From an uncultured Alphaproteobacteria bacterium (lineage in GTDB: Bacteria; Pseudomonadota; Alphaproteobacteria; Rhodobacterales; Rhodobacteraceae): a DNA stretch of 64,000 nucleotides. Below, piece after piece: positions 50,672-52,073 of the stretch. A program made the translations under genes and the position numbers. The notes under the pieces were generated by a model. It saw nothing but the letters and a program-made list of their open reading frames with translations, ran no database searches and was not told where the DNA came from. The stretch's first letter is position 1. Each line of letters begins with the position of its first letter. Location: NCBI GenBank assembly GCA_913051655.1, contig CAJXHI010000013.1, positions 1 through 64,000 on the forward strand. The letters run 5' to 3'.

Positions 50672-51109
50672 TTAATCGTCTTTTCTATCGATAGACGTGG
50701 TTGAACGACCCCGGCCTGCCTTTATCGCAGCTCGGTGCTTTTTGGCGGCAACGCGACGGCGTTTGCTGGCCAAGGTGGGACGTGTGGCGATGCGCGCCTT
50801 TTGAGTAACGAGAGCTTTGAGGATCATTTCCTTAAGCCGCTCTCTAACAATTTCGCGGTTACGCGATTGATGGCGCGTCTCATCGCACTGCAAAATCAGC
50901 GCCCCATCTTTAGTCCATTTGCGCCCGGAAATCCGTTTCAGACGGGCTTTCACAGCATCACTCAAAGATGGAGATCGTGCCGCTTCAAAGCGCAATTCAA
51001 CAGCTGAACTGACTTTATTAACATTCTGCCCCCCCGGACCAGAAGCGCGCATGAACTGTTCTTTCAGTTCCCAATCCTGCAAAGTGATATGCTCTGAAAT
51101 ATGTAACAT
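50672..51109 (-). CDS. arfB: Alternative ribosome-rescue peptidyl-tRNA hydrolase ArfB (YaeJ)
   Basis: FMRASGPGGQNVNKVSSAVELRF GGQ motif and basic C-terminal tail KRRVAAKKHRAAIKAGRGR; start inferred at MLHISEHITLQDW. Confidence 0.95.
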   Translation of the reverse strand: MLHISEHITLQDWELKEQFMRASGPGGQNVNKVSSAVELRFEAARSPSLSDAVKARLKRISGRKWTKDGALILQCDETRHQSRNREIVRERLKEMILKALVTQKARIATRPTLASKRRRVAAKKHRAAIKAGRGRSTTSIDRKDD

Positions 51110-51134: not shown

Positions 51135-51163
51135 AAAGGGCCGCCAGATTGAGGCGGCCCTTT
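51135..51163 (-). terminator. 11-bp intrinsic-terminator-like hairpin between leader and arfB
   Basis: AAAGGGCCGCC-7nt-GGCGGCCCTTT perfect inverted repeat; on minus strand followed by TTTCCGTTT. Confidence 0.75.
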
Positions 51164-51229
51164 GAGATTTACGGAGGTGGGGCCGGTTAGGCTCTCACCA
51201 ATCATGTGGTACACTAACCAAGGATTGCC

Positions 51230-51286
51230 CTAGATTCGCGCCCCCACGACTGTTCCGACACCTCTCTCCAATACCTCTCTAGACAC
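51230..51286 (-). CDS. Candidate 18-aa leader peptide
   Basis: GTG TCT AGA GAG GTA TTG GAG AGA GGT GTC GGA ACA GTC GTG GGG GCG CGA ATC TAG (MSREVLERGVGTVVGARI), GGAGG 7 nt upstream of GTG. Confidence 0.5.
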   Translation of the reverse strand: MSREVLERGVGTVVGARI

Positions 51287-51303
51287 TGGATCACCTCCTT
51301 TCT
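51286..51303 (-). promoter_or_regulatory. Extended Shine-Dalgarno: 18-nt complement of the 16S rRNA 3' end
   Basis: Plus strand CTGGATCACCTCCTTTCT equals the conserved 16S 3' tail; minus strand AGAAAGGAGGTGATCCAG. Confidence 0.85.
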
Positions 51304-51356
51304 TTATGTTTCCTATAATTTATATGTTGGCATAGATTTGGGATTTGTCAAAATGT

Positions 51357-51998
51357 TTATGCACTCTGGTCGAAAATTCTGTGAACCAAAATTCGAAATG
51401 GGATCAAAGCGATCAAAGCAACAGAGAGCTTGACCATCCAATCCGCCAATGCGAGCGATACCCATAGCGGGGCATCAGAGCCAACTGTCAGCAGCGGTGC
51501 GATATCCCAAGCCCAAGAAATGTCTCCATTGGCCGCCTCTGAAAAAAAAGGAATGCTCGCAGAAAAGGCAATTGTAAAAAACAATGCTGTATCAAGAATA
51601 GATCCAACTACCGTTGAAGCCAGAGGTGCACGCCACCACACACCTGCACGCAGGCGATCAAAGACGAGTACATCCACCAGCTGTGCGATAAGAAATGCGA
51701 TGCCTGAACCAACAGCAATACGAAATGCTACCGCGGAATAGGTATAGCCGTCGCCTTCAAGGGTAATCTGACTTCCGATTAAGGAACAAACAACGCCCGT
51801 AACAAAGCCAAAATAAACTACGCGTCTTGCATCGGCTGCTCCGTAAACACGGTTCATTAGATCTGTCACTAAGAAGGCGAGAGGGTAGGTAAACGCCCCC
51901 CAAGTCAACAATCCATCAAGGATTAAAAATTGAACTAGGATATTGGAGGCGACAACAACAGTCGCCATCGCGGCGATACCGAGAAAAATTTTGTTCAT
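51357..51998 (-). CDS. Queuosine precursor transporter (YhhQ/VUT family)
   Basis: NILVQF, WGAFTYPLAFLVTDLMNRVYGAADARRVVYFGF, VFDRLR...WWRAPLASTVVGSILDTALFF; start inferred at MNKIFLG. Confidence 0.94.
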   Translation of the reverse strand: MNKIFLGIAAMATVVVASNILVQFLILDGLLTWGAFTYPLAFLVTDLMNRVYGAADARRVVYFGFVTGVVCSLIGSQITLEGDGYTYSAVAFRIAVGSGIAFLIAQLVDVLVFDRLRAGVWWRAPLASTVVGSILDTALFFTIAFSASIPFFSEAANGDISWAWDIAPLLTVGSDAPLWVSLALADWMVKLSVALIALIPFRILVHRIFDQSA

Positions 51999-52073
51999 AA
52001 TATGGTCCGTTTTAACAAGGTTGCGGAGACTCGGCCCGCGACCATCGCAGACAGGTTCGGACGTATGCACTCA

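Follow-up and report, generated by a model that had tools for sequence, protein, structure and literature searches.

The window analyzed here comprises 64,000 nucleotides of contig CAJXHI010000013.1 from an uncultured alphaproteobacterium of the Rhodobacteraceae. On its minus strand, a predicted RNA gene sits between a yhhQ-like and an arfB-like gene and carries at its 5' end an extended Shine-Dalgarno (SD) sequence that leads into a very short reading frame. The features of the locus are as follows:

50672..51109, minus strand: arfB-like gene with an RF-1 domain (Pfam PF00472), which begins 25 nt past the terminator hairpin (start codon 51109)
51135..51163, minus strand: terminator-like hairpin, AAAGGGCCGCC-UCAAUCU-GGCGGCCCUUU, then UUUCC (core hairpin -19.7 kcal/mol, z -5.1)
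51135..51312, minus strand: predicted stand-alone RNA gene of ~175 nt, from the RF01867 match and the fold, with a 5' end that is an estimate based on where the RF01867 model begins and a 3' end set by the terminator
51164..51167, minus strand: 3' arm of helix P1, UCUC, immediately before the terminator (permutation test, SD-open fold)
51173..51180, minus strand: internal anti-SD segment, CCACCUCC, which can base-pair to the SD when the fold is closed (folds, shuffle comparison)
51182..51186, minus strand: 3' arm of the proposed helix P2, CCGGC (alignment by eye, SD-open fold)
51230..51286, minus strand: mini-ORF of GTG, 17 sense codons and TAG (VSREVLERGVGTVVGARI), read from the sequence, its stop being kept in 68/68 relatives
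51255..51259, minus strand: 5' arm of the proposed helix P2, GUCGG in codons 10-11, pairing with CCGGC at 51182-51186 (alignment by eye, SD-open fold)
51276..51279, minus strand: 5' arm of helix P1, GAGA in codons 3-4, pairing with 51164-51167 (permutation test, SD-open fold)
51286..51303, minus strand: extended SD, complementary over 18 nt to the 16S 3' tail, with the class-wide core GAAAGGAGGUG-R-UC (pattern search, alignment, duplex energy)
51346..51351, minus strand: TTGACA, a candidate -35 box right after the yhhQ stop codon, with no -10 box called
51357..52070, minus strand: yhhQ-like transporter gene (Pfam PF02592), upstream

A search for sigma-70 sites returned none on the minus strand.

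The preliminary description of this DNA had singled out an 18-nt perfect complement of the 16S rRNA tail at 51286-51303, and the match proved to be exact. The plus-strand sequence CTGGATCACCTCCTTTCT is unique in the window even when 3 mismatches are allowed (shuffle mean, 0.03), and the second-longest exact match to the 18-mer spans 10 nt. Read from 51303 to 51286, the minus strand gives AGAAAGGAGGTGATCCAG, which pairs with the 16S 3' end at 18/18 bases and is followed by TG and then by the GTG start; the spacing of 7 nt between GGAGG and GTG had also been given correctly. The predicted duplex with the free 16S tail reaches -26.2 kcal/mol versus -15.5 for the best of the window's 641 candidate start codons, both values being, like the fold energies below, nearest-neighbour estimates made without the ribosome. 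The genome's own assembly yielded no second copy of the 16-nt core of the 18-mer (<=1 mismatch) and no 16S 3' end, so the reference tail, GGCTGGATCACCTCCTTTCT, was verified in a genome of the same genus (G001) and in one of the same family (G008).

Variation of the SD was read from genomes found by covariance model or DNA similarity, and among these element copies GAAAGGAGGUG is almost invariant. The position that follows is A or G, either of which pairs with the 16S U, a few Rhodobacteraceae (L017, L021) having C instead; UC comes next, with variation from there on. Our search patterns in part impose UGUC after the SD, and its conservation was excluded as evidence. At 43 non-redundant sites, position 12 of the block is A or G, position 15 is C in 38, G in 3 and T in 2, and position 16, which faces helix 45, drifts (G17 A17 T7 C2). 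The 16S tail 3' of helix 45 is single-stranded in the standard 16S secondary structure. Since the conserved GAAAGGAGGUG-R-UC complements almost all of this single-stranded tail, while the bases that face helix 45 drift, the comparison suggests that it is the 16S tail that constrains the block. The block can also pair with internal anti-SD segments, but as their sequence and position vary among families, these cannot account for a class-wide invariant.

Complementarity to 16S rRNA could also belong to an antisense RNA that acts in the maturation or quality control of the 16S 3' end, given that it stops at the mature 3' end and that the bases upstream of GAAAGG are variable. We regard this as very improbable, as such a function leaves the fixed start-codon spacing and the conserved stop unexplained and conservation ends where helix 45 begins.

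Beyond the SD and frame of the preliminary description, the locus contains a structured RNA gene (fold z -3.9) with its own terminator-like hairpin and kinship to RF01867, the Rfam family of the Caulobacter sRNA CC2171. CC2171 presumably stems from Landt et al. 2008. In an E-value Rfam search, RF01867 matched 51137-51310 on the minus strand over the full model (E 3e-6, 36.1 bits), which is below the family's 75-bit gathering score; at gathering threshold, Rfam gave zero matches, CC2171 appearing only in E-value mode. By the Rfam cut-off, the RNA is outside RF01867; judged by homology, it is inside as a divergent branch, and it is predicted to be a stand-alone sRNA gene specific to Alphaproteobacteria.

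The RF01867 model matches 61/290 class genomes at E<=0.001, 9 of them above the cut-off, and Caulobacter vibrioides, also above the cut-off, is the sole match among 14 control genomes. The pattern GAAAGGAGGTGRTCNNDTGTC is present in 52/290 class genomes. In the phylum sample, it was found in 48/86 alphaproteobacteria versus 0/213 other Pseudomonadota (both totals counted from the phylum-sample table), and the reversed-pattern control gave 0 matches in every genome listed. Strict patterns are absent from 38/86 alphaproteobacteria, and the RNA may not be universal in the class. All but one of the 48 pattern-positive genomes have a single copy; the two copies in G048 (C1:805112 and C1:2922049) differ in frame, MSHC versus MSHG type, and are possibly a recent duplication. 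Transcription has been seen in Mesorhizobium, where a relative annotated as RF01867 was detected by RNA-seq as a 215-nt transcript (PMC5596092). Text searches of the open literature found these sequences in no paper and just two pertinent mentions of the RF01867 family; within what was searchable, three points are new: the reading of the 5' block as a match to the 16S tail, the conservation of frame and stop, and the distribution across the class.

The exact 20-nt SD-start pattern also occurs in records labelled Gammaproteobacteria, Gemmatimonadetes or Nitrospinota (L138, L112, L073, L035 and L098), the first three of which bear MSS frames of alphaproteobacterial type. Since the phylum-wide pattern search was empty outside Alphaproteobacteria, these records are likely mis-binned or misnamed MAG contigs. 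Two gammaproteobacterial records (L086 and L121; SAR92 cluster, Cellvibrionales) have the 20-nt pattern followed by unrelated-looking sequence.

RF01867 is classed as an sRNA, and Caulobacter has anti-SD sRNAs and a known sponge, CrfA (PMC12559287). The RNA could accordingly be an ordinary trans-acting sRNA, or else a sponge whose SD-like 5' end binds anti-SD sRNAs of the SisA-D or CcsR type. However, the conserved block runs past AGGAGG in both directions (GAAAG... and ...UGRUC), in agreement with the 16S tail, and a sponge has no need of conserved start and stop codons; we consider this explanation quite unlikely.

The frame of 18 codons from GTG to TAG was found on the minus strand as previously described, with GTG at 51286-51284 and TAG ending at 51230. 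Both the SD and the frame, whose conservation the preliminary description had made the touchstone of its proposal, are kept far beyond Rhodobacterales. In Rhodobacteraceae, the frame reads V/M-S-R-x-x-L-E-x-G-V-G-T-.... In 68 RNAs of this type, which were picked without reference to the stop, codon 19 is always a stop (TAG in 28, TGA in 22 and TAA in 18), with no instance of TGG and none of an earlier stop; in the other frames of these RNAs, stops are scattered. Other orders keep the start context unchanged and have mostly VSHC... frames of 20-27 codons or MSS... frames of 22-31 codons, with a 14-codon frame in Bradyrhizobium (VSxxKRCHLAGIAR); overall, frames elsewhere than at this locus are mostly 14-35 codons long. 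Three Azospirillum loci (L079, L110 and L122) have the same SD and an ATG-UC-UC start that open, instead of a mini-ORF, a frame of 57-59 aa whose product resembles a secreted protein (MSHGASPVVAALFGLAALLTAGIANA...). In Sinorhizobium meliloti, the 23-aa SEP1, which has the top translation efficiency among that species' novel sORFs (PMC10117765), could be the homologue.

A very strong SD could have no further role than to ensure that a small peptide is highly expressed, in which case the RNA would be a mini-mRNA and the micropeptide its functional product. The frame and stop kept with mixed stop codons agree with this, as do the conservation of LERGVGT in Rhodobacteraceae and of KRCHLAGIAR in Bradyrhizobium and the synonymous variation at codons 2 and 11 of the Rhodobacteraceae-type frame. 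Nevertheless, the peptides are wholly different from order to order, pairing accounts for parts of the coding sequence, and divergence in the 68 RNAs is nearly equal at codon positions 1/2/3 (0.302/0.320/0.302), so that, overall, selection on a peptide is not apparent; a functional micropeptide is an unlikely explanation. Base pairing could account for much of the conservation of the frame, but the absence of TGG argues against this. From these comparisons, selection seems to act on translation and not clearly on the product. Taken together, the locus very probably holds a conserved translated RNA gene.

Since RNAalifold, applied to 56 sequences aligned with MAFFT, recovered chiefly the terminator, we tested helices by permuting their partners. 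In these tests, which ignore phylogeny, the duplex between codons 2-6 and the terminator foot had a mean of -8.97 kcal/mol over 131 sequences, versus -7.96 +/- 0.14 kcal/mol with partners permuted within families and -6.15 +/- 0.18 kcal/mol with partners swapped across families. Within the Rhodobacteraceae set, covariation is strong in two more stretches (z near -12 and -9.5), the latter covering a hairpin at the stop codon (CUAAGG-CARY-CCUUGG). In every main family, the internal complement of the SD is stronger than in shuffled sequences (mean z ranging from about -1.3 to -1.6), an effect that is modest per sequence, with p<=0.05 in 20/48 Rhodobacteraceae-type and 24/51 VSHC-type sequences. 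The SD is buried in the lowest-energy fold (-73.6 kcal/mol) and exposed in an SD-open fold of -66.6 kcal/mol; by these estimates, pairing with 16S, at about -26 kcal/mol, would pay for its opening.

The preliminary description had placed arfB upstream of the element and taken its proximity as suggestive of a link to ribosome rescue. The gene in fact lies downstream and is co-oriented, and the adjacency itself recurs: arfB adjoins in 46/57 Rhodobacteraceae-type loci with enough sequence, its start usually ~180-260 nt from the SD, and yhhQ lies upstream in most. This arrangement, together with a gap of 25 nt between terminator and arfB that leaves scant space for a separate promoter, is what would be expected of a cis-acting leader (attenuator) in which ribosome loading on the mini-ORF controls terminator read-through into the ribosome-rescue gene. 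However, arfB is displaced or not found in 11/57 of these loci, and in the other orders sampled the RNA occurs with different neighbours and with no arfB found downstream; outside Rhodobacteraceae, no neighbour gene recurs beyond close relatives. A mutually exclusive antiterminator before arfB showed no covariation, its candidate pairing being weaker than that of permuted partners (-10.8 vs -11.5). Because arfB is not conserved beyond Rhodobacteraceae-type loci and the antiterminator test was negative, a general arfB leader is unlikely; a side effect on arfB that is specific to Rhodobacteraceae is possible.

Similar ORFs follow the RNA on the same strand in Bosea and Methylobacterium (L062:1146-3605; L044, L046, L103 and L108). 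The one in L062 is an RNase R-type gene with RNB, cold-shock and S1 domains and, like arfB, is linked to the rescue of stalled ribosomes.

The data fit an RNA that would engage ribosomes, as first proposed from the sequence. In the mechanism that we favor, the unpaired 5' end would base-pair with essentially all of the single-stranded 16S tail and in this way capture a 30S subunit, and the bound ribosome would initiate at GTG or ATG and read the short frame (18 codons here). Translation would open a fold with two states, in which the SD and start region would otherwise be sequestered by internal anti-SD segments, with codons 2-6 paired to the terminator foot. Selection would fall on the act of translation rather than on the peptide, and ribosome occupancy may toggle between forms of the RNA with different stability or trans activity, such that the RNA might report on, or buffer, free 30S subunits. 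In Rhodobacteraceae, read-through may additionally couple the RNA to arfB.

The gene, its conservation, its frame and stop, and part of its pairing covariation come from sequence comparison, while we infer 30S capture, switching and the downstream effect. We give the combined reading, a ribosome-capturing translated regulatory RNA, an even chance, and hold the ribosome-occupancy mechanism more tentatively, as a possibility somewhat short of that. Rather doubtful, in our estimation, is the broadest version, a class-wide sensor of ribosome availability in which one RNA gene per genome would compete with mRNAs for free 30S subunits through its complement of the whole 16S tail, with translation state and not peptide setting the regulatory output. 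If the combined reading is true, Alphaproteobacteria possess a dedicated RNA that meets the ribosome via the strongest SD of the cell and is selected for its translation, not for its encoded product. It would open a direct route to studying the sensing of free ribosomal subunits by cells, and an Rfam sRNA that lacks an explanation would become testable in Caulobacter and rhizobia.

RF01867 is among the closest known systems. The RNA shares with CC2171 the 5' block GAAAGGAGGUGAUCCAGUGUCU (22 consecutive nt identical to the consensus), a 3' hairpin and a long-range helix; the helix that joins the start of the reading frame to the base of the 3' hairpin was recovered in the permutation test on 131 sequences. 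It lacks the Caulobacter-type interior with its VSHC frame, since the Rhodobacteraceae branch differs in its middle and has a frame of 18 codons versus 25 in CC2171. As printed, the Rfam entry carries the label sRNA and says nothing of an ORF or of complementarity to 16S.

The Sinorhizobium dual-function attenuator sRNA rnTrpL/peTrpL (PMC10117765) is a small alphaproteobacterial transcript with a terminator and a translated frame of very few codons, as predicted for the RNA described here; however, rnTrpL is leaderless and the trp attenuator, whereas the present RNA combines a maximal SD with the lack of any downstream gene shared across the class. In Staphylococcus aureus, cryo-EM has captured SD pairing that extends toward the start codon (PMC13009471), indicating that extended SD-anti-SD helices can be accommodated, although the extension there is general among many mRNAs, whereas here a match of 14-18 nt is concentrated in one gene per genome. 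Finally, the alphaproteobacterial anti-SD sRNAs SisA-D and RSs0680a/CcsR (PMC12559287, PMC3927594) are also small RNAs that use SD/anti-SD pairing, but with the roles reversed: they carry anti-SD motifs and bind mRNAs, while the RNA at this locus carries the SD and could bind 16S rRNA.
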